From: Prevotella sp.
GTDB lineage: Bacteria > Bacteroidota > Bacteroidia > Bacteroidales > Bacteroidaceae
Direction of reading: 5' to 3'
NCBI GenBank assembly: GCA_017412705.1
Contig: JAFPWS010000050.1
Span: forward strand, 1 to 38,175
Length of the DNA: 38,175 bases
In this document: piece by piece, positions 908 through 35,029 of the stretch
Position numbering within the stretch: the first letter of the stretch is position 1
How the letters are laid out: each line of letters begins with the position of its first letter
The notes under the pieces: model-generated
What the model saw: only the letters and a program-made list of their open reading frames with translations
What the model was told of the DNA's origin: nothing
The model's database searches: none
Translations under genes and position numbers: made by a program

Positions 908-1024
908 ATCGTTTTATGCATTCTTTATTATTAACTACGATTCATCTTCTTTTATTACTTAAAAAAACAATCTTTTTACGTATCTTTGCACTCTCAAGCG
1001 TATTATTAGAAACATTATTATTAT
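908..1024. promoter_or_regulatory. Divergent intergenic promoter region holding PUL element copy A
   Basis: This 117-bp gap separates the minus-strand GH88 gene from the plus-strand lyase/hydrolase operon. It holds copy A of the window-wide bipartite element: CGTATC at 979-984, 14 bases, then CGTATT at 999-1004 followed by ATTAGAAAC, 26 bases before the ATG at 1025. The first half also contains TATCTTTG (981-988), a full match to the Bacteroidales -7 box TAnnTTTG, but no TTTG lies at the right distance upstream. On the minus strand the palindromic TACGTA at 978-983 gives CGTAAA, with AGTAATAAAAG 21 bases on; this is a weaker candidate site facing the GH88 gene. Confidence 0.6.
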
Positions 1025-3436
1025 ATGAAACGACTGATTATAGTTTTATCGTTGGTTATCTGCCCATTGTTGCAAGGCTATGCACAGGACAACTATAAGC
1101 TGGCGGGACCCTACGAGGTGGTGGCGCGTGACGGTGAGTACCGGAAGTCGAAAGGCGGTAGCGAGCGTGATATGTGGCAGGCGTGGCAGCGGGTCCAGAA
1201 GGGTGACACGGCCACTACATTATATATTATTAATGCTTACGCCAAGACGCTACAGCACTTCGACGGTCATGATGCACCGTTGTGTACCATTCAGGCCTAC
1301 TGGTTGCTGCGTGCGATGATACTGTCCAAGGCGCATCAGACACCAGAGTGGACAGCGATGGTTCGTCGGGCCATACTGCCTGTTCTTGATAAGTTTGAGG
1401 CTGACAGCCCGTATGCCAACGGCAACTGGGGACACATCGTGAACCGCTGTCGCATGGCCGCAGCTATCTTCCTGGAAGACAAAGAGCTCTATCAGCATGC
1501 TATTGACACCTATTTATATGCCAACGACAATGGCTCCCTGCCCAATTATGTCAGCGAGACGGGTCAGTGTCAGGAGACTGGGCGCGACCAGGGACATGCC
1601 CAGCTTGGACTGGGTGCCATGTGTGAAATTTGCGAGATGGCGTGGGAACAAGGGGATGACCTTTGGGGAGCCTTGGACAACCGCCTGATGAAAGGTATCG
1701 AATATACAGCGAAGTACAACCTGGGCTACGACGTGCCCTTCGAGACGTGGACCGACTGCACAGGTCTCTATAACGACTGGACAGAGCCAGGCGCGATGGG
1801 ACGCGGCAACATTCGCTGCATCTACGATTTGCCTTATCAGCACTATGTGGGACGCAAGGGATTGAAGATGCCTTATACCAAGAAGTTGCTCGATTTGCAG
1901 GCCAAGGCCGAGAAACATGGTGAAATCAAGCGCAATCCCGAGGCCGACCAATTCCGCGTAAAGGGCGTGAAGGAGGGTGCCAAGTTGCACAGCATCTATA
2001 CTTATGCTGCGCCAGAAGGTGCTCCGCTCAAAGCTGACTACGACGTCTACATCCAGCCACGCGGACAAAAGGAGTGGACGAAGATAGATACCTATATGGC
2101 GAAAGTCAAGGGAGGCGAGATCAGCTATGCCTTCTTCAACTTTACAGGCGACGTGTTTGTGCGTGTCATCACGAAAAACAAGAAATTTAAGTCAGCATGT
2201 ATCCGTCCCGACTATCGCGGAACGATTGCCAATGTGCAGAACGACTCGACGGTGCAGTTCTTGTTGTTCCAGCCCGAAAATGTCAGTGTGGAGTTTGACG
2301 GGAATATCACCGATAATTTGTTAGTCTTTACCTCGAAGCCAACCATCAGCAAGGAAGAAGCCGAGAAAGCAGCCAAGGCACAGGGCCGTGACTTCCGCTA
2401 CTATGCCCCCGGCATGTACACGGAAGACATAATCAAGGTGCCGTCGAATACTACGGTCTATCTCGACGGTGGCAGTTATTTCTCCGGCACCTTCGCTGTG
2501 GAAGATGCTGAGAACGTTAGCATACTGGGGCGTGGCATTGCTCGTCCGCAGAATGGCTATGAGGGCTGTCATGTATATCGCTCGAAGAATGTGCTGATTG
2601 ACGGACTCATCGTGAATACCTGTCCTATTGGCGAGTCCTCGCAGGTGACGCTGCACGATGTGCGAAGTATTTCCCATCCCCAGTGGGGCGACGGTCTGAA
2701 TGTCTTCGGTGGCAGCAGCGATATTCTCTTCGACCGTGTATTCTGTCGTAATAGTGACGACTGTACCACTGTATACGCTACCCGCAAGTTCAGTGCAAGC
2801 CGAGAGCAGAACCAAGCAGGCTTGAATTCTGCCGAGGCGCAGCCTGAACTCGACCGACAGGTCAAAGGCTTCAAAGGCAGTGTTCGTAATGTCCGCATGA
2901 CGAACTCGACGCTGTGGGCCGACGTGGCACACCCCATCTTCATCGGTCTGCATGGTAATCCGCAGGTGGGCGATAGCATCGTGGGACTGAAGTACGACAA
3001 CATCGACATCATCTGTCAGAACGAGCCGCAGGTGGACTACCAAGGCTGCTTGGCCATCAACTGCGGTGACGGTAACTACGTGAAGGATGTCGTGTTCGAC
3101 AATATCCGTATCGAACTGCCTGCCCAGGTGGCTCCACAGGGCAGTATCCTGCAGGTGAAAGTGGGCTGGAACCAGAAATACTGCACGGCAGCCGGTGGAG
3201 GTGTGGAGAATGTCCTCTTCCGAAACATCCGTTACTACGGTGCGCATCCCAACATGTCGGTCATCATGGGTTATGACGGTCAGCACAAGGTGAAGAACGT
3301 CACCTTCGAAGGACTGAAGATAAACGGTAAGAAGATTTACGATGACATGCCAGGCAAGCCCAGGTGGCATCAGACTGCCGACTACGTGCCGATGTTCGTC
3401 GGTTCCCATGTAGAAAACCTAATATTCAAGAAATAA
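1025..3436 (+). CDS. Secreted two-module enzyme: alginate-lyase-superfamily (PL38-like) domain plus GH28/GH49-like beta-helix
   Basis: The 803-residue protein begins with a signal peptide ending near GYAQ. Residues about 25-300 form an all-alpha lyase-like module with Asn134-Trp135 and the block CQETGRDQGHA at 182-192. The same block occurs in the two PL38-like proteins at 27423 and 32081. Residues about 310-410 look like a beta-sandwich linker. Residues about 425-803 are a right-handed beta-helix with WGDG at 554-557 and NSDDC at 576-580; Asp556, Asp578 and Asp579 are placed like the acidic residues of GH28/GH49 hydrolases. The protein would cut a uronate polymer with one domain and a glycosidic bond with the other, probably in the periplasm. 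Its TAA shares one base with the GH97 ATG (taATG), so the two are translationally coupled. Copy A of the PUL element lies 26 bases upstream. The PL38 label is a family inference, and the fusion is unusual. Confidence 0.8.
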   Translation: MKRLIIVLSLVICPLLQGYAQDNYKLAGPYEVVARDGEYRKSKGGSERDMWQAWQRVQKGDTATTLYIINAYAKTLQHFDGHDAPLCTIQAYWLLRAMILSKAHQTPEWTAMVRRAILPVLDKFEADSPYANGNWGHIVNRCRMAAAIFLEDKELYQHAIDTYLYANDNGSLPNYVSETGQCQETGRDQGHAQLGLGAMCEICEMAWEQGDDLWGALDNRLMKGIEYTAKYNLGYDVPFETWTDCTGLYNDWTEPGAMGRGNIRCIYDLPYQHYVGRKGLKMPYTKKLLDLQAKAEKHGEIKRNPEADQFRVKGVKEGAKLHSIYTYAAPEGAPLKADYDVYIQPRGQKEWTKIDTYMAKVKGGEISYAFFNFTGDVFVRVITKNKKFKSACIRPDYRGTIANVQNDSTVQFLLFQPENVSVEFDGNITDNLLVFTSKPTISKEEAEKAAKAQGRDFRYYAPGMYTEDIIKVPSNTTVYLDGGSYFSGTFAVEDAENVSILGRGIARPQNGYEGCHVYRSKNVLIDGLIVNTCPIGESSQVTLHDVRSISHPQWGDGLNVFGGSSDILFDRVFCRNSDDCTTVYATRKFSASREQNQAGLNSAEAQPELDRQVKGFKGSVRNVRMTNSTLWADVAHPIFIGLHGNPQVGDSIVGLKYDNIDIICQNEPQVDYQGCLAINCGDGNYVKDVVFDNIRIELPAQVAPQGSILQVKVGWNQKYCTAAGGGVENVLFRNIRYYGAHPNMSVIMGYDGQHKVKNVTFEGLKINGKKIYDDMPGKPRWHQTADYVPMFVGSHVENLIFKK

Positions 3437-5391
3437 TGAGAAAGAGCCTGTTTCTTTTGGCATTCCTGCCCCTGCTGTCTATGGCACAGCAGTTGTCGTC
3501 ACCTGACGGCAAGTACACTATCAGCGTCGACGGCATGACCTATAGTGTGACTTATAATAATAAGGTGATTATCGAGAAGAGCCAGCTGGGCGTCGACATT
3601 GACAACCGGCTCTTTGAGTCGGCTCTTGCCGTGCCTCGTGGCGTTCACGAAAACTGGTGCGCCGATTTGCAATTGAAGGGCGAGGAACGCCTGTCAGTAG
3701 ACACCACATGGACTCCGCTGTATGGTGAGAACACCCGCATTCGCGACCACTACAACCAGTTGGTGCTGCATTATGAGAAGGGCAGCAATGGTCAGGGCAC
3801 CGTCACTGAAGGCTACGACAAACGCAAGTACTATGCCATGGACATCGTGGTTCGTGCCTACAACGAGGGCATTGCTTTTCGCTACCATTTCCCCGAAACG
3901 GCCAATAGCCTCTTCCTGCACATCACGGGAGAGCAGACGTCGTTTGCCATGCCGACAGGGACAATGGCCTGGTATGAGGAATGGGCACAGGGAGCATACG
4001 AGAAAAGAAGCCTCACCCCCAGCCCCTCTCCAAAGGGAGAGGGGAGTGAATGGTTTGAGAGTGAACGACCGCTGTTGCTGCTTGTCCCCCCTCCTTCGGA
4101 GGGGACGGGGGAGGCCACCTATGTCGCCCTGCTTGAAGCAGCGATGAAAGACTATACCCGAGGCAAGTTCAAGTTGGCAAAAGACAATGTTTTGCAGATA
4201 GCCATGTACTCATGTGCCGACATCATCTCGCCCTATGATACTCCATGGCGTGTCATCATGGCGGGCGACCGCGCCGTCGACCTCATCAATCATAAAGACT
4301 TGGTGCTGAACCTGAATGAAGAGCGCGCTCAGGAAGACTGGTCGTGGGTACGTCCCGGCAAGGCTTTCCGTAGTGGCAAGTTGGCTAAGGATGCCATTAT
4401 GAAGAGCATCGATTTCTGTGCAGAGTTTGGTATTCCGTATGTGGAGTTGGATGCTGGCTGGTACGGTCCTGAAGGTAAGGTGGCGAGCGATGCCCGCAAG
4501 GTCATCGAGACGCGCGACTTTACCATGCCCGAGGTCTGTGCTTATGCCAAGTCGAAAGGCATTGGCGTGTGGGTATATGTCAACCAGCGTGCCCTCTATC
4601 GTCAGCTCGACGAACTGCTTCCGCTCTATCAGCAGTGGGGAATCAGCGGCATCAAGTTCGGCTTTGTGCATATCGGCAACCAACAGTGGAGCACATGGCT
4701 GCATGACGCTGTGGAGAAGTGCGCCAAGTATCACATCATGGTTGATATCCACGACGAGTACCGTCCCACGGGTCTCTCCCGCACCTATCCTCATCTACTG
4801 ACCCAGGAGGGTATTCGTGGCAACGAGGAAATGCCCGACGCCACGCACAACGTGACGCTGCCTTTCACCCGCTACCTCTGCGGCCCTGGCGATTATACGC
4901 TGTGCTACTTCAACTCACGGGTGAAGAATACCAAGGGCCATCAGTTGGCGATGGCGGCCGTCTATTACTCTCCCCTGCAGTTCTACTTCTGGTATGATAA
5001 TCCATATATGAAGGGATGGAACAATGCTGAGTTGAAGTTCTGGAAAGATATTCCTACCGTCTTCGATGAGAGTATCGCCCTCGATGGTCAGCCTGGTGAG
5101 TACATCATCCAGGCCCGCCGCAGCGGTCAGGACTGGTTCATGGGCTGCATGACTAATACTGAGGCCCGCACCGTTAGCATCCCCACCGACTTCCTGCCCG
5201 CAGGTAAATATGAAGTGGAAATCTATAACGACGACCCCACGCTTGACACCCAGACCAAGGTCAGCACCATGAGGAAAACTATCAAAGTAGGCACCCCCTC
5301 CCGTTGGAGGGGGCAGGGGGGAGGCTCCATCACCCTTCAACTCCAACCCAGCGGTGGAGCCGCCCTGCACATAAAACCCGTCATCAAATGA
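3436..5391 (+). CDS. GH97 family glycosidase, inverting type by motif
   Basis: The 651-residue protein starts at the ATG overlapping the previous stop; the signal peptide MRKSLFLLAFLPLLSMAQQ supports this start over any further upstream. It has the full GH97 layout: N-terminal beta-sandwich (about 20-270), catalytic TIM barrel (about 280-560) and C-terminal beta domain. Motifs include YVELDAGWYG, GIKFGF at 405-410, DIHDEYRPTG around Glu441 and QEGIRGNEE at 457-465. Retaining GH97 alpha-galactosidases have an Asp nucleophile after GIK; here that position is Gly, and Glu residues are kept at the SusB-like positions, so an inverting alpha-glucosidase-type mechanism is more likely. Three palindromic elements are inserted in frame (4009-4046, 4086-4115, 5294-5326) in surface-loop or C-terminal positions. 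The end overlaps the GH127 start as ATGA. Family assignment is secure; the sugar is not known. Confidence 0.9.
   Translation: MRKSLFLLAFLPLLSMAQQLSSPDGKYTISVDGMTYSVTYNNKVIIEKSQLGVDIDNRLFESALAVPRGVHENWCADLQLKGEERLSVDTTWTPLYGENTRIRDHYNQLVLHYEKGSNGQGTVTEGYDKRKYYAMDIVVRAYNEGIAFRYHFPETANSLFLHITGEQTSFAMPTGTMAWYEEWAQGAYEKRSLTPSPSPKGEGSEWFESERPLLLLVPPPSEGTGEATYVALLEAAMKDYTRGKFKLAKDNVLQIAMYSCADIISPYDTPWRVIMAGDRAVDLINHKDLVLNLNEERAQEDWSWVRPGKAFRSGKLAKDAIMKSIDFCAEFGIPYVELDAGWYGPEGKVASDARKVIETRDFTMPEVCAYAKSKGIGVWVYVNQRALYRQLDELLPLYQQWGISGIKFGFVHIGNQQWSTWLHDAVEKCAKYHIMVDIHDEYRPTGLSRTYPHLLTQEGIRGNEEMPDATHNVTLPFTRYLCGPGDYTLCYFNSRVKNTKGHQLAMAAVYYSPLQFYFWYDNPYMKGWNNAELKFWKDIPTVFDESIALDGQPGEYIIQARRSGQDWFMGCMTNTEARTVSIPTDFLPAGKYEVEIYNDDPTLDTQTKVSTMRKTIKVGTPSRWRGQGGGSITLQLQPSGGAALHIKPVIK
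4009..4046 (+). repeat. Intragenic palindromic element 1 (SLTPSPSPKGEG reading)
   Basis: The element has arms CCCCTCTCC and GGAGAGGGG around a short A-rich loop, preceded by AGCCTCACCCCC. It lies in frame inside the GH97 gene and reads as SLTPSPSPKGEG. It belongs to the same family as the copies at 6108, 6630, 7191, 17989 and 18199 (same orientation) and 4086, 5294 and 9949 (opposite orientation). Confidence 0.85.
4086..4115 (-). repeat. Intragenic palindromic element 2 (inverted)
   Basis: Arms CCCCTCC and GGAGGGG flank TTC, followed by ACGGGGGAGGC, the reverse complement of the GCCTCCCCC lead seen in the plus-oriented copies. In frame in GH97 it reads PPSEGTGEA. It is only 39 bases after element 1. 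Confidence 0.8.
5294..5326 (-). repeat. Intragenic palindromic element 3 (inverted)
   Basis: CCCCCTCCC and GGAGGGGG arms are followed by CAGGGGGGAGGCT, again the reverse-oriented form. It sits close to the C-terminus of GH97, is read as TPSRWRGQGGGS and leaves the frame open. Confidence 0.8.
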
Positions 5392-7220
5392 AAAAGATGC
5401 TATTAACAGTATTCGCGTTTGCTTCGCTGTCGATGACGGCACAAACGTTATGTCAGCCGTTTGCATTGAAAGATGTAAAACTGCTACACAGTCGCTTTCA
5501 GCGTAACATGCAGCGCGACTCGGCATGGATAGCCTCGATTCCCGTAAACCGGCTGTTGCACTCGTTCCGCAATACGGCGGGCGTGTATTCTGCTTTGGAG
5601 GGCGGCTATGACGCAGGGCTGAGGCTCGGTGGCTGGGAGTCGCCCGACTGCGACCTGCGCGGGCATATCACCGGTCATCTGCTTTCGGCAATGGCCTATC
5701 TGCAGATGAAGGAGAAAGCCGACTCGCTGGTGCAGGGTTTGGCCGAGGTGCAGCGTCAGTATGGTACGGGCTATCTCTCAGCCTTCGGCGAAGGGCTTAT
5801 AGACCGTAATATCCAAGGCAAGTCGGTTTGGGCACCGTTTTATACGTTGCATAAAATCCTGCAGGGTTTGATAGACCAATACACGATGTGTGGTAATGAG
5901 AAGGCATTAGAAGTGGCTAAAGGTATGGGTGACTGGGCATACAACAAACTGAAGCCATTGTCAGAAGAAACCCGTCTGAAGATGATTCGTAACGAGTTCG
6001 GTGGCTTCAATGAGGCCATGTATAACCTGTACAGCATCACCCGCGACGATAAATATCTCTGGGTGGCCCGTTTCTTCTATCATAACGACAAGATAGACCC
6101 GCTGAAGAGCCTCCCCCTGTCCCCCTCCGAAGAAAGGGGGAAACCGGATCTGGGTACGAATCATGCCAATACGTTTATCCCCAAGCTGTTGGGCGAATGC
6201 CGCAACTATGAGCTGTTCGGCCAGGAGGACAGTCGCCATGCTGCCGAGACATTGTTTTGGACGCTGGTCAACGACCACGCCTTTGTAACGGGCGAGGTAT
6301 CAGACAAGGAACATCTGTTCAAGCCAGAGACACAGTCGAAGCATCTGACGGGCTATGATGGTGAGAGCTGTTGCACCTATAATCTGCTGAAGTTGGCAGA
6401 CCGTCTGTTCTGCTACGAACCGAATAGCAAGATTGCCGACTACTACGAGCGCGGACTCTACAACCACCTGTTAGGTCAGCAGGACACGCTCTCGTCGATG
6501 GTGTGCTACTTCACGCCCCTGATGACGGGCGGTTATCGGCTTTACAGCACTCCTGACAGCAGCTGGTGGTGCTGTGTGGGCTCTGGTTTCGAGACCAACG
6601 CCAAGTTCCAGGCAGGCATCTATTATAGAAGCCTCACCCCCGGCCCCTTTCCAAAGGGAGAGGGGAGTAAAGTCCTGTATGTAAATCTCTTTATTCCGTC
6701 TGAACTGAATTGGGACGGTACGATTGTCCGTCAAGAGACATCATTCCCTGAGTCAAACAAGACCGTCATCACGGCTTCATCGAAGGTAAATATGAAAGTC
6801 AGATACCCGTATTGGGCAACATACATGAAGGTGAATGGCAAGAAAGTGAAGGCTGGAGCCGATGGCTATGTGTTGGTTAAGAACGTCAAAAAGTCAGAAA
6901 TAGAATTTGGCATGAATCTGCACGAGGAGGCTACCAAGGACGACCCCACGCGTGTCGCCCTACTCTATGGGCCCATTGTTCTCGGCGGTCGCCTGACAGA
7001 TGTGGAAAAGCCCTTCAGCGACCCCACGAAGCATAACGACTATTACACTTTCGACTACGGCAAGCACCCTGATGTTAAGTTGGGTGATGTCAAACACCTC
7101 GGCGGTCTCCGCTTTGCGAATAGCGACGGCACACCGATTCAGCCCTTCTACGACCTCCAGCACTGCCGCTATGTGGTATATTGGATTAAGAGCCTCCCGA
7201 CAAGCGGGAGGCGGCTATAA
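5388..7220 (+). CDS. GH127-type (DUF1680) beta-L-arabinofuranosidase
   Basis: The 610-residue protein starts at the ATG inside the ATGA overlap with GH97 and has a signal peptide (MKKMLLTVFAFASLSMTAQ). GH127 enzymes are retaining beta-L-arabinofuranosidases with a zinc-bound cysteine nucleophile. The required residues are visible: GESCCTYN with Glu326 and Cys328, and WWCCVGSG with Cys395-Cys396, matching the Glu-x-Cys and Cys-Cys zinc site of the characterised HypBA1 family. An (alpha/alpha)6 barrel fills about residues 30-450, followed by beta-sandwich sequence. Three palindromic elements lie in frame at 6108-6140, 6630-6667 and 7191-7212. The last one supplies the C-terminal residues SLPTSGRRL and the stop, so the natural C-terminus may have been replaced. 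The sister family GH146 is an alternative label. The gene is last in the operon and convergent with hipA. Confidence 0.9.
   Translation: MKKMLLTVFAFASLSMTAQTLCQPFALKDVKLLHSRFQRNMQRDSAWIASIPVNRLLHSFRNTAGVYSALEGGYDAGLRLGGWESPDCDLRGHITGHLLSAMAYLQMKEKADSLVQGLAEVQRQYGTGYLSAFGEGLIDRNIQGKSVWAPFYTLHKILQGLIDQYTMCGNEKALEVAKGMGDWAYNKLKPLSEETRLKMIRNEFGGFNEAMYNLYSITRDDKYLWVARFFYHNDKIDPLKSLPLSPSEERGKPDLGTNHANTFIPKLLGECRNYELFGQEDSRHAAETLFWTLVNDHAFVTGEVSDKEHLFKPETQSKHLTGYDGESCCTYNLLKLADRLFCYEPNSKIADYYERGLYNHLLGQQDTLSSMVCYFTPLMTGGYRLYSTPDSSWWCCVGSGFETNAKFQAGIYYRSLTPGPFPKGEGSKVLYVNLFIPSELNWDGTIVRQETSFPESNKTVITASSKVNMKVRYPYWATYMKVNGKKVKAGADGYVLVKNVKKSEIEFGMNLHEEATKDDPTRVALLYGPIVLGGRLTDVEKPFSDPTKHNDYYTFDYGKHPDVKLGDVKHLGGLRFANSDGTPIQPFYDLQHCRYVVYWIKSLPTSGRRL
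6108..6140 (+). repeat. Intragenic palindromic element 4
   Basis: AGCCTCCCCCTGT followed by CCCCCTCCG, a short spacer and AAGGGGG. In frame in GH127 it reads SLPLSPSEERGK. The second arm is partly degraded compared with copy 1. Confidence 0.75.
6630..6667 (+). repeat. Intragenic palindromic element 5
   Basis: Almost identical to element 1 (AGCCTCACCCCCGGCCCC lead, AAAGGGAGAGGGGAG tail). In frame in GH127 it reads SLTPGPFPKGEG, the same reading phase as element 1. Confidence 0.85.
7191..7212 (+). repeat. Short palindromic element 6 forming the GH127 C-terminus
   Basis: GCCTCCC and GGGAGGC arms around GACAAGC, preceded by AG as in the longer copies. The reading frame passes through it as SLPTSGRRL and ends six bases later, so this element provides the last residues of GH127. 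It could also act as a transcription hairpin at the end of the operon. Confidence 0.7.
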
Positions 7221-7270
7221 TGCAGAGGGCAAATTTAATGCCGTTCCAGATAACGGGGCAGGAACAACTC

Positions 7271-8767: not shown

Positions 8768-8804
8768 AGTATTATTCCCTGCCGATTCGTATTAAATATA
8801 AAAG
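8768..8804 (+). promoter_or_regulatory. PUL element copy B, upstream of GH43
   Basis: AGTATT (8768-8773), 14 bases, CGTATT (8788-8793), followed by AAATATAAAAG. The second half begins 24 bases before the GH43 ATG at 8812. This leaves no room for a separate downstream promoter and argues that the element is itself the promoter or covers it. Confidence 0.7.
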
Positions 8805-10483: not shown

Positions 10484-11581
10484 ATGATGAAGAAAATAAT
10501 CCTTTGTGTCTTTGTTTCTTTGTGTTCTGTAATGATATCGCAGGCACAGACCATTACGATAGAGAACACAACCAGTCTGCAACGTTCGGAACTGGTGGCT
10601 GTCAGTGCCGATGAGCTGGGTATAAAGAGCGGCACCGATGTCGTGGTGCGCGACGTGTCCAACATAGAACGCCCTACCCAGTGGACGTATGACGGCAAGC
10701 TGTTGATGGAGGTGCATGCGCGTCCTCACAGCAAGGCCGTGTTTACCCTGCAGTCAGGAACCCCTGCTGCATTCCGCTCGTGGGTGGATGGCAGACAGTA
10801 TCCTGAGCGTCTCGACGACATCGCTTTCGAGAACGACCGCATAGGCTTCCGCATCTATGGTCCGGCCTTACAGCGCAAGGGCGAGAAAGGCTACGGCTAC
10901 GACCTGTGGGTGAAGCGTACCACAGAGCTCGTCCTTGGTGAACTCTACCGCAACGACCCGCGCCTGTCGTTCCATCTGGACTATGGCAAGGGCGTCGACT
11001 GCTTTGCCGTAGGTCCTACGTTAGGTTGCGGCACGCCAGCCATGTTACAGCATGGAGAGATACGCTTCCCATGGTGCTACGAGACGTACAAGATACTGGA
11101 CAAGGGACCGCTGCGCTTCACCGTACAGATAGATTTCCCCACAACGGACGACGGCATCACCGAGCATCGCATCCTGTCTATTGACAAGGGTTCGAACTTT
11201 GTCGAGAGCACCGTATGGTTCGACGGTTTGAAACAGCCCACCGACGTGCTGGCTGGCTTCCCTATCCGCCCGGCAGGGGCAGAGACGCTGGTCAAGGGCG
11301 GTGGCTACATCCAGTATGCCGACCCCACCATCGAGCCGGACCGCTATCAGTCGCAGGTATATGTCGCCTTGCTGTTCCCCGACCAGCAGGTTGACATCGA
11401 CGTCGTGCAGCAGCATGGCGTGGGCATCCTTCGAGGCTACACCTCCAATCAGCGTTTCCATTATTATATCGGTGCCGCCTGGAGCGAGTTCGACGTGCGC
11501 TCGCAGCAGGAGTGGCAGTCGCGCATCGACGGATTCATGCAAGCCCGACAGGCTCCTTTACAAGTGGTTGTTGTTAAGTAA
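10484..11581 (+). CDS. DUF4861 family secreted protein, possible uronate-processing enzyme
   Basis: The 365-residue protein has a signal peptide (ending near SQA), so it acts in the periplasm. Features typical of DUF4861 are visible: LDDIAFENDRIGFRIYGPAL near residue 110, GYGYDLWVKRT, LDYGKGVDCFAVGPTLGCG, and a C-terminal HYYIGAAWSEFD. The family is beta-rich and has no established reaction that I can name. It follows GH43 by seven bases and precedes the KduD-like dehydrogenase by 51. In uronate pathways that place is often taken by the isomerase KduI, which is absent from this window. An isomerase or lactonase-like role on unsaturated or keto uronates is therefore possible, but this is context inference only. 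Its TAA lies inside PUL element C, so the element for kduD overlaps the end of this gene. Confidence 0.8.
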   Translation: MMKKIILCVFVSLCSVMISQAQTITIENTTSLQRSELVAVSADELGIKSGTDVVVRDVSNIERPTQWTYDGKLLMEVHARPHSKAVFTLQSGTPAAFRSWVDGRQYPERLDDIAFENDRIGFRIYGPALQRKGEKGYGYDLWVKRTTELVLGELYRNDPRLSFHLDYGKGVDCFAVGPTLGCGTPAMLQHGEIRFPWCYETYKILDKGPLRFTVQIDFPTTDDGITEHRILSIDKGSNFVESTVWFDGLKQPTDVLAGFPIRPAGAETLVKGGGYIQYADPTIEPDRYQSQVYVALLFPDQQVDIDVVQQHGVGILRGYTSNQRFHYYIGAAWSEFDVRSQQEWQSRIDGFMQARQAPLQVVVVK

Positions 11582-11612
11582 AGTCGCAGCATCGTTCGTA
11601 TTGACAGAAAAC
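11577..11612 (+). promoter_or_regulatory. PUL element copy C, upstream of kduD
   Basis: AGTAAA (11577-11582), 14 bases, CGTATT (11597-11602) followed by GACAGAAAAC. The first half overlaps the stop codon of DUF4861 (11579-11581). The second half starts 36 bases before the kduD ATG. This suggests kduD and the transporter have their own start of transcription within the regulon. Confidence 0.7.
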
Positions 11613-13660: not shown

Positions 13661-13699
13661 CGTAGTAGTGTCACCTCATCCGTATTATAGATAACAAAC
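13661..13699 (+). promoter_or_regulatory. PUL element copy H, not followed by a gene on its strand
   Basis: CGTAGT (13661-13666), 14 bases, CGTATT (13681-13686) followed by ATAGATAAC. It matches the other seven copies in both halves and in the 14-base spacing. It lies 8 bases after the transporter stop, and the next gene is on the other strand. A terminator follows about 100 bases on. Confidence 0.65.
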
Positions 13700-13813
13700 A
13701 TAAAGTAAAAATTAGCTTCATATAGTTTATGTTAGTAATGTAGTTAGTAGTTTTCAGATTAGGTTAGTATTTTTTAAGGTAAAAGCCGGATGCGTGAAGC
13801 ACCCGGTTTTTTT
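13692..13813 (+). ncRNA. Candidate small RNA driven by PUL element H
   Basis: Between element H and a strong terminator (13786-13813) lie about 120 bases with no worthwhile reading frame; the only ATG-started frames are a few codons long. The stretch is AU-rich with repeated GTTAGT motifs (around 13728-13770) and ends in a stem-loop with seven T. A promoter-like element, a short AU-rich body and an intrinsic terminator make the simplest reading a regulon-controlled sRNA. The alternative is a simple 3' untranslated region of the transporter operon. The start position is estimated from the distance to the element and is not exact. Confidence 0.45.
13786..13813. terminator. Rho-independent terminator between convergent genes
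   Basis: CCGGATGC (13786-13793), loop GTGAA, GCACCCGG (13799-13806) with one A-C mismatch, then seven T. It serves the kduD-transporter operon and the candidate sRNA. On the other strand a shorter T run may also end the DUF6078 transcript from 13819. Confidence 0.85.
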
Positions 13814-13818
13814 GTCGC

Positions 13819-17181: not shown

Positions 17182-20034
17182 ATGAGACGAACAAGGACAG
17201 GGATTTTTGCATGTTTATTGCTGATGGGGCAGTTGCTCTTTGCGGCCACTATTGGTGAGGAGCGCATCGTCAGCCTGACGCTGAACGACGGGCTGACGGG
17301 CGAGACAGCCCATTGCGTGATGACCGACCACAATGGCATGACATGGATAGCGACGAACAGCGGCATCAACGTCTATAATGGCAAGTCGATGGACAGCTTC
17401 CGTATAGAGAACGAGCGGGGGCGCTATGTGTCGGTGGAGAGCCTGTGCGAGGTGGGGAACTCAGGCATCTATGCCGCCACGTTAGAGGGACTTTACCGCT
17501 TGCCGCATGGTTCTGGCCGCTTTGAGCGCGTACTTCCCGAAATACAACAATGCAGCAGCCTGTTAGCTGTTGGCGACACGCTCTATATCGGCGGCCAGCA
17601 GGGACTGATGGCCTACGACGGCCGACAGCTGAAGCACGTCGATGTCAGTCCGAGCGGCAAGGGCTTGGATAACATCGTGCGCCAGTACGTCTTGGGTGAC
17701 GACGGGCTGGTATGGTTCCTCAGCCGCTTCGACCTGAACAGCTACAATCCTCGCAGCGGAAAGATGACCCCCTACCCTCTGGGGCGGCAGCTCATCCTGA
17801 CACAGTTTGCTCCTATCGGTGACGGTTTATATATAATAGGTACGCGAGGTAACGGACTCTTTACCTTCGACATCCATACCAATGAGATGAAGCCAGTGGA
17901 AGGCGTGGGCAATATCGTCATGTCGGTGCAGCGTGCTGCCGACGGCAGCATCTGTGTGGCGACCGACGGAGCGGGGGCGTATCGATTAAGCCTCACCCCT
18001 AACCCCTCTCCCAAAGAGAGGGGAACAATAAGGTTAGAGGTGAGGGAGCACTTCGACACCGAGGGCGACGTTTCGCACCGGCTGATGAGCAATGGTGTCT
18101 ACTGCTACTACCGCGATGCAAACGGTGTCAACTGGTTTGGCTTCGTGCGCCACGGGCTGGCCTATACCTACTATAGCGGTGACGTGTTCCGCGTGTTCAG
18201 CCTCCCCCCAGCCCCCTCCCGTAGGAGTGGGAGCACTGAGAGGGCTTTCACCACGGAGGGCATGAATGTGCGCACCTTCTGTCGGCATGGCGACGATGCG
18301 CTCATCGGTACGCAGAACGGCTTTCACTATGTCAACACGCAGACCGGCCAGCATCGCTACTACTCGCCACAGGAGCTGGGCGGCGGACATATCGTCACCA
18401 CCATTGTCTGGTGGGAGGGCCGCTTCTATGTCGGCACCTTCGACGGCGGTCTGCACGTCTTCGACCCACAGACGTTGCAGCTCAGCCCTCAGACATTCTC
18501 CCCACTGCTTGACGACACCTCGATAGGCGACCTGAAGACTGGTCCTGACGGACGGCTGTGGATAGGCTGTGGACACGGGCTGATGATTGTCGGCGACGGC
18601 AAGCTGCAAGAGCACTTCACCGAACAGAACTCCCACATCGTGGGCGGACTCATCCTAAGCATTGCCTTCGACCGTAGTGGCAATGCCTGGTTGACGGGAG
18701 CTACAGGCTGCTCGCTCTACAGCGTGCGCAGCCATGACATCGTGGATACCAACTTTCCCAAAGGTTTCTTCAACCGCGAGACGTGGATGAAGGCCTATAA
18801 CGGCCACGACGGTCTGGTGTTTATGCGCACAGGACCGCAGACCTTCTACACGAACGAGCAGATGACCGACTTCGGCGAGTTGCAGTTGCCTATCCGGTTT
18901 AACGACAAGTGGTGTCGCAATATGGTGGACGACATGCACAGTTACTATGTGTTGGCCTCCGAGCGCGGTGTGTTCCGCTTCAGCTACGACTTGAAGGAGA
19001 TGCAGCATTTCGGCTACGGCGAGGGGTTGCGCGGCGACTTCATCAACGACATGGGTGTAGATACTGATGGACACCTGTGGGTGGCCACCTCGCAGGGACT
19101 GTTCATGAGCGACCAGAAAGACATGGCGGCATGGCGGTCCTCCAACCGCTTCAAGATTATGCTGCTGAACATCCGCCGAGGCAGCGACCTGTTGCCTATG
19201 ACTGAGTACTATCAGGCCAACACGGAGCACCGTCTGCGCACCACCTGGAACCTGACCTCCGAACCGTTGCAGATGGAGCCGTTGCTGATGGACTACTCGA
19301 AGCAGACAGGCCGCTTGTATGAATACCGAATAGGTGGCGGCGACTGGCAACAGGTCAGCGACGGTCAGTTTATCGACCTGCGCCATTTGGATTTAGGCCA
19401 GAACCGGTTTGAGGTGCGGCTGGCCGGTGCCGAGGGTACGGCCTCGGTCTACACCGTTACGGTGGTACCGTCGTTTTGGGCGTGGTTCGAGTTAGTGCTG
19501 CTGATTGTGGCCGGCGTGCTGCTCATCCTGTGGTGGCGCTACAGAAAAAATACGAAGATGCTGTTGGCTGAACGTGACGAGATTGAGGATGCACTTATTG
19601 AAAGTGAAGAGTTAAGAGCGAAGAGTGAAGAGTTGTTGGAAGAACCAACGGAGAAGTACCAGAAGGTGAAGATAGACGAAGCGGAGTGTGCCGACATTGT
19701 CGAGCGCATGAAAGCCTACATCGAGCGCGAGGGGGTCTACACCAATCAGGACCTGAAGATGAAAGACTTGGCCGACGTGCTCCACCTGTCGGCACCCAAG
19801 CTCAGCCAGGTGTTCAACCTCTACTTGGGACAGAACTACTACGACTTCATCAACCAGTACCGCCTTGCGGAGTTCAAGCGCCTGATAGCCGAGGGAGAAA
19901 TCAAGCGCTACACCATCACCGCACTCTCCGAGCAGTGCGGATTCAAGAAGTCGAACTTCTTCTCCACCTTCCGCAAGGTAGAGGGCTTGACTCCCGTCGA
20001 ATACCTCAAGAAAATGGGAGTGAAAGCCACCTAA
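17182..20034 (+). CDS. Membrane-spanning propeller sensor fused directly to AraC-type DNA-binding domain (no kinase)
   Basis: The 950-residue protein has a signal peptide (about 1-22), a periplasmic region of two-component-regulator propeller repeats (blades such as DHNGMTWIATNSGINVYNG near residue 50 and DTDGHLWVATSQGLF near 630), and a Y_Y_Y-like beta domain (about 705-760). One membrane helix follows (about 765-785, FWAWFELVLLIVAGVLLILWW), then a coiled coil rich in Glu/Lys (about 790-830) and a C-terminal AraC HTH_18 domain (about 845-948). In the usual hybrid two-component regulators a histidine kinase and receiver lie between the membrane helix and the HTH; both are absent. It should bind an oligosaccharide outside and control PUL genes from the membrane. 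Two palindromic elements (17989-18023, 18199-18232) are inserted in frame in the propeller. It stands just before the sigma factor and susC. Confidence 0.85.
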   Translation: MRRTRTGIFACLLLMGQLLFAATIGEERIVSLTLNDGLTGETAHCVMTDHNGMTWIATNSGINVYNGKSMDSFRIENERGRYVSVESLCEVGNSGIYAATLEGLYRLPHGSGRFERVLPEIQQCSSLLAVGDTLYIGGQQGLMAYDGRQLKHVDVSPSGKGLDNIVRQYVLGDDGLVWFLSRFDLNSYNPRSGKMTPYPLGRQLILTQFAPIGDGLYIIGTRGNGLFTFDIHTNEMKPVEGVGNIVMSVQRAADGSICVATDGAGAYRLSLTPNPSPKERGTIRLEVREHFDTEGDVSHRLMSNGVYCYYRDANGVNWFGFVRHGLAYTYYSGDVFRVFSLPPAPSRRSGSTERAFTTEGMNVRTFCRHGDDALIGTQNGFHYVNTQTGQHRYYSPQELGGGHIVTTIVWWEGRFYVGTFDGGLHVFDPQTLQLSPQTFSPLLDDTSIGDLKTGPDGRLWIGCGHGLMIVGDGKLQEHFTEQNSHIVGGLILSIAFDRSGNAWLTGATGCSLYSVRSHDIVDTNFPKGFFNRETWMKAYNGHDGLVFMRTGPQTFYTNEQMTDFGELQLPIRFNDKWCRNMVDDMHSYYVLASERGVFRFSYDLKEMQHFGYGEGLRGDFINDMGVDTDGHLWVATSQGLFMSDQKDMAAWRSSNRFKIMLLNIRRGSDLLPMTEYYQANTEHRLRTTWNLTSEPLQMEPLLMDYSKQTGRLYEYRIGGGDWQQVSDGQFIDLRHLDLGQNRFEVRLAGAEGTASVYTVTVVPSFWAWFELVLLIVAGVLLILWWRYRKNTKMLLAERDEIEDALIESEELRAKSEELLEEPTEKYQKVKIDEAECADIVERMKAYIEREGVYTNQDLKMKDLADVLHLSAPKLSQVFNLYLGQNYYDFINQYRLAEFKRLIAEGEIKRYTITALSEQCGFKKSNFFSTFRKVEGLTPVEYLKKMGVKAT
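17989..18023 (+). repeat. Intragenic palindromic element 8
   Basis: AGCCTCACCCCTAA, then CCCCTCTC (18003-18010), CCAAA, GAGAGGGG (18016-18023). In frame in the propeller of the regulator it reads SLTPNPSPKERG. Confidence 0.85.
18199..18232 (+). repeat. Intragenic palindromic element 9
   Basis: AGCCTCCCCCCAGC then CCCCTCCC, GTA and a degraded second arm GGAGTGGGA. In frame it reads SLPPAPSRRSGS in the regulator propeller, in the same phase as the other plus-oriented copies. Confidence 0.75.
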
Positions 20035-20121
20035 ACGGCATTTCTAATTTAGATGGACTGAAACGAAATGCACTGATAATGAGATAGTTGAATCATTTGG
20101 ACTACTGACTAAACCAGTTGG

Positions 20122-20161: not shown

Positions 20162-20173
20162 GCTCTATCTTTG
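20142..20173 (+). promoter_or_regulatory. Promoter of the ECF-type sigma gene
   Basis: CTTG (20142-20145), 20 bases, TATCTTTG (20166-20173), a full -7 box match, with the ATG at 20206. It is a housekeeping-type promoter; no PUL element lies here, so the sigma gene is not obviously under its own control. Confidence 0.75.
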
Positions 20174-20763: not shown

Positions 20764-20799
20764 CGTAAAACAGGTGAATGGAGCGTATCACAAGAAAAC
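20764..20799 (+). promoter_or_regulatory. PUL element copy D, upstream of susC
   Basis: CGTAAA (20764-20769), 14 bases, CGTATC (20784-20789) followed by ACAAGAAAAC. The second half starts 56 bases before the susC ATG, the longest distance among the copies. Confidence 0.75.
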
Positions 20800-28899: not shown

Positions 28900-30012
28900 A
28901 CCCTCTGCAATATCTTCTGCCATTCTATTCAGCATCAAACATTGCTCACGGGATATGGTCTTACGCTCCATATGGTATTCCCAAGGGCTTATCGGCAACA
29001 GGCGACCTTCAGAGCAGGTGGTGAAGGATTCGCCCGTCGGTTTGTACAACGGAGGGAAGCCGTTCTCTCGGAGCAGGATGATGGAGTAGCCCCTGTCCAT
29101 GGCCTCGCGCATCACCGCCTTCTCGCGGGTCGCTATGGCTGCGCTAACCAAAACACCGCCAGCCTCGCCACAGGCCAGCCACTGTTCGCGATATTCAGCA
29201 TATTTCTTGTCGCTGTAGCCGCCATGGACGATGACGGCCATCTTCTGCGGGATATCAAGGAGGAAACGGTTGCCCACCATCTGGCAACTATGGCCTGCGA
29301 CAACAGCCTGATGGATGACAGTGAAGAGATCGGGGCGCAGACGCTTAACGGCAAGACGGCGGGGGTTGTCGTCAAGGTAGCGCTTCCAGTTGTCCAGTTG
29401 CCCTTCGCGGAGGAGAATCTTGTCGTTGTAGCCAGGCTCGAAGAGGCTTCTACCTGCTGAAGAACCAGCAGGAACAGGGGCTGCCCCCGTTCCTGGCGTG
29501 GTTCCCGTTCCCGGTAGTTCTGCCCCCGTTCCCGGCGGTTCTGCCCCCGTTCCCGGCGGTTTTTCGCCGGGTCCTTCTATCCGCCACCAAGCCTTGGTGC
29601 AGCCCACCTTAAATCCCCATATCACCTGCCCCAGATGCTTCTTTTCTGGCATATTCTCCTTTACCCTGACTATCATGTGGATATGGTCAGGCATGATACA
29701 CACCTTCCAGACTTCCACCATGGGGTAGTGCTCACCTATCTTCCGTGTCTCTTCGTCGCGAATAGCCTTCCCTAACTTCGTCAGCTCCACCTGGGCTGCC
29801 TCGGTTCTTTGCAGTTCTGCCCCCGTTCCCAGCGGTTCTTCGCCGGGCATACAAAGCCTTCCCAGCAGCGGCTTCCTCCCTTCCACTACCAGCGTCAGCA
29901 TATACGTCCCTTTTTCACGATAATCATGCCAAGGTGAGCGCCGCTTCATATGGTGCTTGGTCTCAGAGACCTTCACTCCCGCTGCTTCTGCTTCCGTTCT
30001 GCTTCTGGTCAT
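28891..30012 (-). CDS. RAYT/REP-type tyrosine (HUH) transposase with Rossmann-like C-terminal extension
   Basis: The 373-residue protein starts at ATG 30010-30012 (MTRSRTEAEA); a start at MKRRSPWHDY is also possible. The HUH core has SPWHDYREKGTYMLTL near residue 24, the metal-binding His110-Ile-His112 (MPDHIHMIV) and a likely catalytic Tyr212 (RYLDDNPRRL). Such REP-associated transposases nick and move single-strand hairpin repeats. Two low-complexity stretches of PGE(E/K)PxGTGAE (about residues 56-66 and 145-184) come from GC-rich hairpin repeats inside the gene. After the core, about 140 extra residues (GVLVSAAIATREKAVMREAM, IILLRENGFPPLYKP) look like a DprA/LOG-type Rossmann fold. The gene lies between the two lyase units on the opposite strand and could have moved the palindromic elements found in this window; that link is inference. 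Confidence 0.8.
   Translation of the reverse strand: MTRSRTEAEAAGVKVSETKHHMKRRSPWHDYREKGTYMLTLVVEGRKPLLGRLCMPGEEPLGTGAELQRTEAAQVELTKLGKAIRDEETRKIGEHYPMVEVWKVCIMPDHIHMIVRVKENMPEKKHLGQVIWGFKVGCTKAWWRIEGPGEKPPGTGAEPPGTGAELPGTGTTPGTGAAPVPAGSSAGRSLFEPGYNDKILLREGQLDNWKRYLDDNPRRLAVKRLRPDLFTVIHQAVVAGHSCQMVGNRFLLDIPQKMAVIVHGGYSDKKYAEYREQWLACGEAGGVLVSAAIATREKAVMREAMDRGYSIILLRENGFPPLYKPTGESFTTCSEGRLLPISPWEYHMERKTISREQCLMLNRMAEDIAEGKN
29518..29571. repeat. GC-rich tandem repeat and hairpin inside the transposase gene
   Basis: Two exact copies of a 21-bp unit (TTCTGCCCCCGTTCCCGGCGG) occupy 29518-29538 and 29539-29559, followed by the second arm of the hairpin CCCGGCG...CGCCGGG (29552-29571). A third copy with one change and its own hairpin arm lies at 29815-29847 in the same gene. 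Confidence 0.8.
29815..29847. repeat. Dispersed copy of the transposase-internal hairpin repeat
   Basis: The same 21-bp unit with one base change, followed by CGCCGGG as in the copy at 29539-29571. Both are read in the same frame in the transposase, giving the repeated PGE(E/K)PxGTGAE. Confidence 0.75.
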
Positions 30013-30032
30013 ACTCCCTTCGTTTCTCCCTG

Positions 30033-30064
30033 CAAAAATACAACAAAGTAATGAGTTGTGCAAG
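30033..30064 (-). promoter_or_regulatory. Transposase gene promoter
   Basis: On the minus strand CTTG (30064-30061), 20 bases, TATTTTTG (30040-30033), 20 bases before the ATG at 30012. It faces away from PUL element E, only 20 bases distant. Confidence 0.55.
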
Positions 30065-30083: not shown

Positions 30084-30120
30084 CGTAAATCTATATTTAT
30101 CTCCGTATCACAAGGAAAAT
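30084..30120 (+). promoter_or_regulatory. PUL element copy E, upstream of the beta-helix protein
   Basis: TTTG followed at once by CGTAAA (30084-30089), 14 bases, CGTATC (30104-30109) and ACAAGGAAAA. The second half starts 35 bases before ATG 30139. Confidence 0.75.
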
Positions 30121-30138: not shown

Positions 30139-31701
30139 ATGATGATGAAACAAAAATTACTCAAAACAATTGTGCTCGCCCTGGCCGTGCTGGGGGGAGC
30201 AAGTAGTGCGTGGGCGGTTAGAGACACTGAGAAGCCCATCTATTGCCCAGTCAACGACGGGTCGTATGACTATGTTCTGGAGGCATTCAATGCAATTAAA
30301 GACAATGCTGCTACAGAGTTGGAGATTCAGATTTGGGGCACGAGACCAAAGTTGGGAACTGAAAATAATTCGCGCATCAACATCCCCGCTGGCAAGACGC
30401 TGAGCATCACACCTATGGTCGACGGCATTATCCTGACTTCAGGTAGTCATAACCGTAGCAACATCTGGTTTCTGAACGCTCAGGACAATGCTACTTTCAA
30501 TATTGGCAGTGCTGACCATGCCATGACTATTGAGGGCTATGGTTTCAATGACAACAACACCCAGATGAATGCCGTCTGCGCCAACGAGAAGAAAGGTGTA
30601 ATGAACATCACAAATGTCACCTTCCAGAAGTTTCGCTTCGGTACCAACAATTCGACATATGGCTACGTCTATGCCAATAAGGTGGCTTCTACCAGTAGCA
30701 CGGAGGGCTACGTGACGATGACCGACGTCACCATTACCAACTGCCAGACGGCCAACGATGCCTTCATCAACAGCATAAATACCAATAACGATGCCATCTG
30801 CTTAAAAGGCAACTTCACTATCAACCACAAAGACAGCAACACTGAGCCTGTGTTCTCTCTGATGGGACGTATTAAACTGGGCGATAAGTCCAGTGACGCC
30901 GTATACAGTGGTTTCACGGCTCCTAATCTGATAACAATTGTTTGGGCTAAGAGTTCTCCTGCAATTGGAGATAATGTCATTGTAAAGGTTCCCGAAAGTC
31001 AGAAGACAGGCATTTTCGATGTGACCAATGAAGGCTACGGTCTGGTTCGTTCTGGTAACGGCGGCGATATGAAGCTCACCCAGGCCTATACGCTCAGTGT
31101 CTCTGAGGCTGGTGCTGCTACGCTGGTTTTGCCGTTTGAGTCGACTATTCCTACAGGGGCTACGTGCTATGACTTGACTTATTCAAGTGGTGATAATATT
31201 AATGTCACAAGTGTAACAACTACATTGGCTAAAGACGAAGCCGTGCTGGTGATAGCTAATGAGGGTTCTTATAAGTTTGTCTCTACCGCCACATCCGGTG
31301 ACTTGGCTACAGGTAGTGGCCAGACTTCAGCCAATGGTGTCTTGATAGGCAACTATGATGCTAATTACGTCGTTCCTACTGACGGCTACATCCTAACCAA
31401 CCATAGTGGTACGGTGGCGTTCCGCAAAGTGGCAGAAGGTAATACCAATAAAATTGGTGCAAACCGTGCCTATATGAGTGTCACATATTCTTCTGGCGGT
31501 TCTAACAACGCTCCTGCTTATTATTCTATCATATTCCCTGGCGATGGCGATAATGGTACAACAGCGATAATGGCAGTGGATGTGGAGAAGCCTCTTGTTG
31601 ATGACGGTGAGATTTATAACCTTCAGGGTGTCCGTATGACGGGCAGCAACCTGCCGAAGGGTATCTACGTGAAGAATGGTAAAAAGTTCGTGATTAAGTG
31701 A
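30139..31701 (+). CDS. Secreted beta-helix protein with type IX-like C-terminal sorting tail
   Basis: The 520-residue protein starts at ATG 30139 (MMMKQKLLKTIVLALAVLGG, signal ending near AWAV). Residues about 35-290 are a parallel beta-helix-like stretch (ITNVTFQKFRFG, TMTDVTITNC) without evident catalytic acids. Residues about 305-370 hold the module TQAYTLSVSEAGAATLVLPFEST, which is also present in the protein at 35055. The C-terminus EIYNLQGVRMTGSNLPKGIY ending in GKKFVIK resembles the Prevotella/T9SS-type sorting domain, shared with the protein at 32081. It is probably released or attached at the cell surface and may bind the polysaccharide. No enzyme family can be named. It has its own PUL element and shares a terminator with the small peptide gene that follows. 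Confidence 0.75.
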   Translation: MMMKQKLLKTIVLALAVLGGASSAWAVRDTEKPIYCPVNDGSYDYVLEAFNAIKDNAATELEIQIWGTRPKLGTENNSRINIPAGKTLSITPMVDGIILTSGSHNRSNIWFLNAQDNATFNIGSADHAMTIEGYGFNDNNTQMNAVCANEKKGVMNITNVTFQKFRFGTNNSTYGYVYANKVASTSSTEGYVTMTDVTITNCQTANDAFINSINTNNDAICLKGNFTINHKDSNTEPVFSLMGRIKLGDKSSDAVYSGFTAPNLITIVWAKSSPAIGDNVIVKVPESQKTGIFDVTNEGYGLVRSGNGGDMKLTQAYTLSVSEAGAATLVLPFESTIPTGATCYDLTYSSGDNINVTSVTTTLAKDEAVLVIANEGSYKFVSTATSGDLATGSGQTSANGVLIGNYDANYVVPTDGYILTNHSGTVAFRKVAEGNTNKIGANRAYMSVTYSSGGSNNAPAYYSIIFPGDGDNGTTAIMAVDVEKPLVDDGEIYNLQGVRMTGSNLPKGIYVKNGKKFVIK

Positions 31702-32015: not shown

Positions 32016-32052
32016 CGTAAAGCGGTGGCCCTGTTCGTATCACAAAGAAAAC
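32016..32052 (+). promoter_or_regulatory. PUL element copy F, upstream of the CBM96/PL38-like protein
   Basis: TTTG then CGTAAA (32016-32021), 14 bases, CGTATC (32036-32041) and ACAAAGAAAAC. The second half starts 45 bases before ATG 32081. Confidence 0.75.
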
Positions 32053-34934: not shown

Positions 34935-34992
34935 GGATAAAGTTATAATAATGGGTGAAGCATTGCCGGAGTTAGGGGAAACATAAAGTATG

Positions 34993-35029
34993 AGTAAAAA
35001 GGGAGGGTGGAGCGTATCACAAAGAAAAC
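34993..35029 (+). promoter_or_regulatory. PUL element copy G, upstream of the right-edge gene
   Basis: AGTAAA (34993-34998), 14 bases, CGTATC (35013-35018) and ACAAAGAAAAC. The seven-base spacer end GGTGGAG is close to the TGGAG before the same half in copy D. The second half starts 42 bases before ATG 35055. Confidence 0.75.

Follow-up and report, generated by a model that had tools for sequence, protein, structure and literature searches.

A fixed-spacing sequence element in a Prevotella-like fibre-degrading locus is most likely the start signal for a specialised sigma factor controlled by a membrane sensor

The catabolic transcripts of what appears to be a Prevotella-like fibre-degrading cluster, and of loci related to it, are marked by a two-part sequence element, TTRMGTA-N16-CGTAT followed by an A-rich tail, which judging from the sequence is most likely read as a start signal by a dedicated sigma factor that a membrane sensor controls. 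Nine copies lie in the window, which is the whole stretch of 38,175 nucleotides that was analysed (Prevotella sp., GenBank assembly GCA_017412705.1, contig JAFPWS010000050.1) (Table 1). The promoters of many sigma factors in polysaccharide loci of Bacteroidota are largely unassigned. In the available parts of the papers, promoter prediction for PUL sigma factors is called challenging without start-site data (Ravcheev et al., 2013; PMC3878776), no motif is given as known for any alternative ECF sigma factor of B. thetaiotaomicron (Ryan et al., 2020; PMC7366714), and a 2025 study ties two ECF sigma factors to the older PM2 motif (PMC12596196). If the proposal is true, the combination of a promoter of fixed anatomy, a candidate sigma factor, a conserved small RNA and an upstream sensor that has an array of its own would make a circuit ready to be tested, and the element could be used to find more members of the regulon.

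Table 1. Features of the window discussed in the text
Feature	Position	Strand	Basis
Element copy nine, before GH88-family gene (ATG 907; PF07470)	924..959	-	pattern match, Pfam
Element before ORF 1025-3436 (Alginate_lyase-like)	979..1014	+	pattern match
Element before GH43 (8812)	8768..8803	+	pattern match
Element before SDR/gluconate 5-dehydrogenase-like gene (11633)	11577..11612	+	strict pattern with one mismatch
Element ahead of candidate small RNA	13661..13696	+	pattern match
Candidate small RNA	13693..13815	+	start inferred from element; C-poor, GUUAG-rich 5' part
Membrane regulator: Reg_prop propeller, membrane helix, coiled coil, AraC HTH	17182..20034	+	Pfam; helix by eye; coiled coil inferred
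Direct-repeat array, units 20044, 20088, 20109 (steps 44 and 21 bp)	20044..20121	+	alignment, pattern search
Housekeeping TAnnTTTG box of sigma gene	20166..20173	+	sequence match
ECF sigma factor, 170 aa	20206..20718	+	ORF, family scan
Element before susC (ATG 20840)	20764..20799	+	pattern match
Element before gene at 30139	30084..30119	+	pattern match
Element before modular lyase-like gene (32081)	32016..32051	+	pattern match
Element before right-edge gene (start 35055 or 35061)	34993..35028	+	pattern match

The element, its spacing and its position are directly observed. An earlier note on this DNA had listed eight copies, each of which was found in its place; the total rises to nine because one on the minus strand had been overlooked (AGTA from 959, 959→924), 32 nt upstream of the ATG of the GH88-family gene. 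Counterparts of this copy occur in the corresponding divergent position in five related loci (G149, G095, G086, L167 and L171; the genes behind them were taken without a Pfam scan). The strict form MGTA-N16-CGTATYA is exact at seven of the eight listed sites, and with at most one mismatch it has 9 matches in the window against 1.36 expected, a number reached in none of 100 shuffles; the ninth match of this kind is at 31343 on the minus strand, antisense within ORF 30139-31701. The distance of 24–56 nt before the ATG claimed for seven genes was borne out when measured from the C of CGTA. For the gene at 30139, earlier described as beta-helix, no match was found in Pfam or NCBIfam.

From the window and related loci 78 sites were collected, and a matrix was built from the 44 that have CGTAT and are followed by an ORF within 110 nt (sites of small RNAs, truncated genes, CGTAA/CGTAC variants and stray matches such as G211 −12020 and G238 −5089 were set aside). 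Matrix columns that the search pattern prescribes are necessarily at 100%. The A-rich tail belongs to the element: counting from the C of CGTAT, positions +12 to +14 have A in 89, 93 and 82% of the 44 sites. The TTR before MGTA (T 75%, T 93%, A 45% plus G 50%) belongs to it as well. The distance from CGTAT to the ATG is 17–87 nt with a median of 36 nt (44 sites), which is often too short for another promoter downstream.

The spacing is fixed in related loci as well: upstream of 298 predicted genes [AC]GTA-N-CGTA has 40 matches at a gap of 16 (7 from the window, 4 from the G083 and G095 stretches, which had been fetched for pattern matches, and 29 independent of that selection) and 0–4 matches at each gap of 8–15 and 17–26; in 600 gene-interior controls the gap-16 form is absent. 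There are also 17 antisense gap-16 matches in this survey, some of which lie in divergent spacers and belong to the neighbouring gene; there each of the two genes has its own, oppositely oriented element. A housekeeping TAnnTTTG box is present within 130 nt of only 9 of 49 element genes versus 87 of 167 genes that have no element and whose intergenic space is 100 bp or more (Fisher p 3e-5); the element thus largely takes over from this box.

A perfect TAnnTTTG box (981-988) does overlap the first half of the element before ORF 1025, and the same is seen in G095, G086, L167, G230 and G149, although the G086 gene, in the corresponding place, has no match to the window ORF. One could therefore think of the first half as the housekeeping −7 box, its GTA giving the TA of TAnnTTTG, with the second half lying in the leader. 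This is very improbable: when the 11 TTTG-like sites are removed, the remaining 33 of the 44 are without TTTG at positions 6–9 (T 18, 33 and 30%, G 36%), and the overlap was found to be confined to one promoter family.

The earlier note had held that a genome scan finding the motif as often inside genes as before them would speak against a regulon. In the genome of origin (3.42 Mb, 96 contigs) it is the location that is special, whereas the raw count is not above control, with 12 exact matches versus 13 for the reversed pattern. Seven of the 12 are in the window, three in contig C95, which repeats window positions 1-19320 at 99.99%, and two elsewhere, one of these (C95:41349) being antisense inside an ORF. 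With the tail included and at most one mismatch, 12 of 14 matches are the eight sites or their four C95 copies; at up to two mismatches there are 38 matches versus 49 in the control. Among 200 genomes of the genus, 41 have at least one match to TTRMGTA-N16-CGTATNA, mostly a single one and about at the level of the control, and at least three matches occur in G000, G095, G083 and G149, all regulator-bearing, and in G167, in which no regulator was found.

Two-box architecture, a fixed spacing of about 16 bp and CGT(A) in the −10 box are shared by the element and the general ECF promoter consensus of other bacteria. We consider it probable that the element is the −35/−10 promoter of the ECF sigma factor of the locus, under a regulator acting via a separate array; TTRMGTA would be the −35 box, CGTAT the −10 box with a 16-bp spacer in between, and transcription would start in the region of the A-rich tail. 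This is the first of two readings in the earlier note, whose idea of a regulon is supported, and it is favoured by the geometry, the few TAnnTTTG boxes, the short distances to the ATG and the separate AraC-like array.

The array and the gene neighbourhood are, like their conservation, direct observations. The array consists of like half-sites with a step of about 21 bp beside an AraC-type regulator, as is typical of HTCS/SusR operators, and it is likely to be the operator of the regulator. A strict two-unit pattern occurs once in each of 17 of 24 sigma upstream stretches in regulator-bearing loci and nowhere else there, missing 7 of the 24, and it is absent from 24 control loci (which include the near-identical pair L178 and L249); in the own genome it has one exact match and one place at one mismatch (control 3). 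It should be noted that the array alignment takes over-long ORF starts as the sigma starts for L170, L171 and G054, and that in G108 and G052 the sigma gene is not adjacent to the regulator gene. No kinase or receiver family was found by Pfam scan in the window regulator and four relatives, which by domain content would then not be a hybrid two-component system (histidine kinase plus receiver), and no anti-sigma (FecR-like) family was found among the window ORFs scanned.

From these comparisons we infer the pairing of proteins with motifs, the points where transcription begins, the ligand and how control flows, as follows. A glycan fragment would be sensed by the membrane regulator, whose AraC domain would bind the array and thereby activate the housekeeping TAnnTTTG promoter of the sigma gene; RNA polymerase with this ECF sigma factor would then read the element and transcribe the structural genes of the locus and the small RNA.

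The main difficulty is that across loci the element does not follow the sigma factor, as the motif of an ECF promoter should. Co-occurrence was dropped as a means of telling sigma from regulator, for both travel together: in a sample of 200 genomes the sigma factor was found in 9 (E ≤ 1e-15) and the regulator in 12 (E ≤ 1e-100), with 8 common to both, and the profile from the sigma alignment is unspecific at E 1e-10 (213 of 398 genomes; regulator 25 of 398 at 1e-70). The informative case is G332, whose regulator nests among those travelling with a window-type sigma (support 100/100) and whose sigma factor belongs to another clade (99/95) and is only 25% identical to that of the window, yet the element is the same. 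On sequence grounds this sigma change speaks against the sigma-promoter reading, and the AraC protein may be the reader instead. G230, which is spread over two contigs and absent from the regulator tree, resembles G332 (C-terminal piece of the regulator 68–71% identical, sigma 28%), and the other sigma type is combined with the element also in G108, G160, G211 and G238. By eye, the two sigma clades can be told apart in regions 2 and 4; a clear shift of the tail position with sigma type was not seen (45 and 10 sites). The trees leave out the sigma rows L178 and L250 (near-copies) and regulator pieces below 400 aa (including those of G160 and G230).

Conversely, no element was found near five regulator-less sigma factors grouping with the window type (100/99), nor in any of 24 ECF loci without regulator. 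Because it is constant across sigma clades and absent near regulator-less sigma factors, the element, by these comparisons, tracks the regulator better than the sigma. There are exceptions on both sides: G308, G361 and G123 have elements and no sigma gene was seen (deletion or join; contigs of 12 and 6 kb), the window-type regulator-sigma locus L170 has no element match in 20.5 kb, and none was found in the distant-regulator loci G014, G194, G396 and G160:C196. G187 and G052 mostly have CGTAA or CGTAC as the second half.

These findings give some weight to the second reading of the earlier note, in which the AraC-type regulator would bind the element as a dimer, the operator being an imperfect direct repeat with a step of 20 bp like those of HTCS/SusR regulons, while the sigma factor would have another role. 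The element is seen in loci with the regulator for both sigma types, the HTH of the regulator shows high conservation outside the most distant rows, and published HTCS motifs include steps of 20–21 bp. Still, we regard this reading as rather unlikely, disfavoured relative to the promoter reading. CGTA comes down to 20–21 nt from the ATG, which leaves no space for a promoter downstream, TAnnTTTG boxes are scarce at element genes, and nothing would be left to read the array in front of the sigma gene. Moreover, the two halves differ: TTR precedes the first and the A tail follows the second, and the positions of the first half that match this tail avoid A. As half-sites they have in common only MGTA plus a T two bases before it.

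That regulator and sigma factor act together at the element, somewhat like PorX and SigP, with the sigma factor making the −10/−35 contacts and the regulator nevertheless constraining the element, would account for both the promoter geometry and the constancy after a change of sigma, and direct binding of PorX to SigP is described (PMC4800418). We think this improbable, since positions −35 to −5 upstream of TTRMGTA show no additional conserved block (less than 0.45 bits each) and PorX itself is reported, in the available part of the same paper, not to bind target promoters.

The preferred sigma-promoter cascade has partial likenesses among known systems, compared here as far as the available parts of the papers describe them. 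In Bacteroides the motifs of HTCS regulators repeat directly at steps averaging 21 bp (Ravcheev et al., 2013; PMC3878776), like the array beside the AraC-type membrane propeller sensor, but no kinase or receiver was found in the window regulator, and the array is at the sigma gene rather than at structural operons; the element differs from these operators in its 20-bp step, its unequal halves and its position against the start codon. In PorXY-SigP of Porphyromonas gingivalis a signalling protein likewise acts via an ECF sigma factor, but this is a two-component pair with direct PorX-SigP binding and different genes, and the SigP motif differs from the element (PMC4800418). A CGT −10 box has been assigned to ECF sigma factors in Flavobacterium, and the SM6 promoters of F. 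psychrophilum, compared on the CGT box alone, serve a different regulon (T9SS) (PMC9723704). The PM2 (−30/−10) promoters of B. thetaiotaomicron (SigW-1/SigH-1) are likewise a non-housekeeping class proposed for ECF sigma factors, one of which acts on part of a PUL, but, compared from text and not from logos, they have TGTT at about −10 instead of CGTAT (PMC7366714; PMC12596196). The literature search, as far as the available text of the papers reaches, gave no report of the element, the array or the small RNA.

FecI/FecR-like sigma/anti-sigma pairs of PULs likewise have the sigma gene next to susCD and a CGTA-type −10 box, but in the window no anti-sigma gene was found among the ORFs scanned, and the sigma gene lies behind an AraC-type sensor and the array.

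The copy at 13661 has no protein gene downstream and precedes a short TTAG-rich stretch with a terminator, a candidate small RNA that this copy may drive. No consistent target emerged when duplex energies of its 5' part were computed for the regions around translation starts in 13 loci: top rank went to the sigma leader in the window and L168 and to the regulator leader in G086, the latter coming second in G095, and against background the window, G086 and G095 pass the 5% level, none the 1% level and L168 neither. A pairing with the regulator leader that is visible by eye in three loci (G149, G095 and G086) did not hold more widely. In Rfam no family reaches its gathering score; FopS of Bacteroides (RF04319) scores 20.9 bits (E 0.41) versus a gathering score of 56. 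According to the available part of the paper (PMC11697453), FopS RNAs are also PUL-related with a single-stranded 5' part and a terminator hairpin, but are multicopy with housekeeping promoters.

Similar units are present in 13 of 30 regulator-bearing loci; their likeness is partly by choice, because they were picked by eye as an element followed by a TTAG-rich stretch and a terminator before the next ORF (the other 17 loci had no dedicated scan, and several of their contigs end too soon). In 9 of the 13 the regulator gene directly follows the element of the unit. The earlier placement of the regulator and sigma genes simply outside the regulon needs change: they are probably the upper tier of a cascade. 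More tentatively, the whole might be a three-tier switch with neither kinase nor anti-sigma factor, from sensor to array and sigma to promoters, in which the small RNA would close a feedback loop and the sigma module could be exchanged between lineages without rewiring the promoters. The small-RNA candidate ends in a predicted intrinsic terminator hairpin (about 13784-13808), which is maintained through compensatory changes in 12 aligned units (that of G123, where the terminator rule is weak, was left out); the rule fired in 11 of the 13 units, and in the other two, L165 and G332, a hairpin is visible.

The element is a candidate promoter of ECF-sigma type, TTRMGTA-N16-CGTAT followed by an A-rich tail, and all eight positions that the earlier note had listed for the shorter form MGTA-N16-CGTATYA were recovered, seven as exact matches and one with a single mismatch. 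With up to one mismatch allowed, the window contains nine matches where 1.36 are expected (none of 100 shuffles scored as high). Separately from that count, a ninth copy of the element was recognised in minus orientation, from 959 down to 924, 32 nt ahead of a GH88-family gene. In a scan of the source genome, which the earlier note had proposed, the count is not above control, but the matches cluster at these sites. The exact pattern occurs in 12 places (seven in the window, three on contig C95 of the same genome and two elsewhere) and the reversed control pattern in 13, so that the number of matches alone proves nothing and only their location is informative. When the tail was added and one mismatch allowed, 12 of 14 matches were window sites or their copies on C95. 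The apparent second copies exist because C95 overlaps the window: it repeats positions 1-19320 with 99.99% identity (2 mismatches), extends about 28 kb further leftward and has its other end inside the regulator gene. Past the left border of the locus, C95 carries ORFs (L034, 21475-27340) that by their starts and order we take to resemble a gliding/T9SS gld-type cluster.

When 200 genomes of the genus were scanned with a similar pattern, most stayed near the control level. At least three matches were found in four genomes that have the regulator, and also in G167, in which no regulator was found. A near-identical sequence starting TTAAGTATTAATC and ending CGTATNA is present in G149:C17, G162:C52, G167:C11, G035:C45, G041:C61 and G095:C111; it fits the pattern because of its own conservation and is probably unrelated to the element.

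The anatomy of the element was derived from related loci of other genomes in the genus and of named assemblies. In the upstream regions of 298 genes predicted there, [AC]GTA and CGTA are separated by a gap of 16 on the gene's strand in 40 cases (7 from the window, 4 from stretches fetched for a pattern match and 29 from neither), by each other gap from 8 to 26 in 0-4 cases, and by a gap of 16 on the antisense strand in 17; none of 600 gene-interior controls contained a gap-16 pair. In a 44-site matrix the first half reads T75 T93 R M before GTA, and the second half CGTAT; counted from its C, positions +12 to +14 are A in 89/93/82% of sites. The spacer is C/T-rich without conserved order and no position from -35 to -5 stands out. 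The distance from the C to the ATG is 17-87 nt (median 36), with 20-26 frequent. The housekeeping box TAnnTTTG precedes 9 of 49 genes with the element versus 87 of 167 without it whose free upstream space is 100 bp or more. The exception is the ORF at 1025, an enzyme gene, where a perfect TAnnTTTG (981-988) overlaps the element's first half. The overlap is kept in the orthologs of G149, G095, L167 and G230 and at the G086 gene in the corresponding place, and this conservation points to a second, constitutive transcription start that the gene probably has.

Regulator, array and sigma gene in the window
Feature	Position	Description
Regulator	17182-20034	propeller repeats, AraC HTH and, by eye, a single membrane helix
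Array units	20044, 20088, 20109	form CTAAnnnAgnTGG, steps 44 and 21 bp
ECF sigma	20206-20718	relatives found among solved structures: E. coli and another sigma-E chain

No kinase or receiver domain was found in the regulator. The sigma gene has its nearest named relatives in Prevotella, Prevotellaceae and Bacteroidales assemblies, and the genome to which the window belongs is accordingly described as Prevotella-like; among the 200 genomes the regulator occurs in 12, the sigma factor in 9 and both in 8. In loci that have the regulator, the region before the sigma gene was compared (24 stretches), and the CTAAnnnAgnTGG units recur there with their 44- and 21-bp steps; 17 of the 24 carry the strict two-unit pattern, the units being degenerate in the remaining seven. 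At all other positions of the scanned loci the strict pattern is absent, as it is from all 24 ECF control loci; the source genome has it once exactly and once with one mismatch (control: three). TAnnTTTG lies upstream of 20 of the 24 sigma genes. For HTCS operators an average step of 21 bp is given in section 8 of PMC3878776. In G308 (L237, 14619-15770) a susC-like fragment comes after the array, and the sigma gene and the greater part of susC are absent through either a deletion or an assembly join.

Judged by sequence, the array fits an AraC activator and the element an ECF promoter. Since two proteins and two motifs thus have matching fits, we favour a chain in which the regulator would act on the array, the sigma factor would then be expressed and would read the element. 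Several results speak against this chain. In G332, the regulator nests among those accompanying the sigma clade of the window (protein tree, 100/100) but its sigma factor groups with another clade (99/95; 25% identity), and the element is present. G230 gives the same picture spread over two contigs, the other sigma and the element also occur together in G108, G160, G211 and G238, and G187 and G052 have variants of the element. Regions 2 and 4 are visibly different between the two sigma clades. Either the two sigma factors share one specificity, or the regulator, alone or with the sigma factor, constrains the element. Five sigma factors without a regulator group with that of the window (100/99), and no element was found in their neighbourhoods, nor upstream of predicted genes in ECF loci without a regulator (0/24). 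L170, a locus with a regulator/sigma pair of the window type, has no match in its 20.5 kb. Because of these results, our confidence in the chain from regulator through array and sigma factor to element stays only moderately above even.

The copy at 13661 fronts a candidate small RNA. Its counterpart in G149 and G095 sits between an MFS gene and the regulator gene, with a TTAG-rich stretch and a terminator after it; this unit and the regulator are adjacent there, and in G149 the regulator's TAnnTTTG box comes after the unit. In the window two genes at 13819-17072, DUF6078 on the minus strand and VapE-like on the plus strand, separate the unit from the regulator, apparently an insertion. Among 30 regulator-bearing loci 13 units were picked, of which nine are just upstream of the regulator, those of the window, G086 and G187 lie 3 to 19 kb from it and that of G123 is divergent. 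Their 5' part is C-poor (2-13%). In 12 aligned rows, every one of the 11 base pairs predicted for the terminator hairpin has one or more rows in which both sides differ and pairing is kept, and each is broken in 1-3 rows. No Rfam family reached its gathering score in the window (FopS 20.9 bits versus 56), and no target of the small RNA was established.

Literature searches found no report of this combination, for whose sensor no kinase and for whose sigma factor no anti-sigma gene was found. Its single parts match known kinds, namely an AraC-type PUL sensor, an ECF sigma factor and a small RNA with a terminator; the combination is a variant, with the array at the sigma gene, a single type of promoter for the structural transcripts and a predicted RNA from the same promoter.

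Weak similarity, with both matches under their cut-offs (Y1_Tnp, E 0.0025; NF047646, E 1.6e-6), links ORF 28891-30063 (minus), elsewhere in the window, to REP-associated tyrosine transposases.
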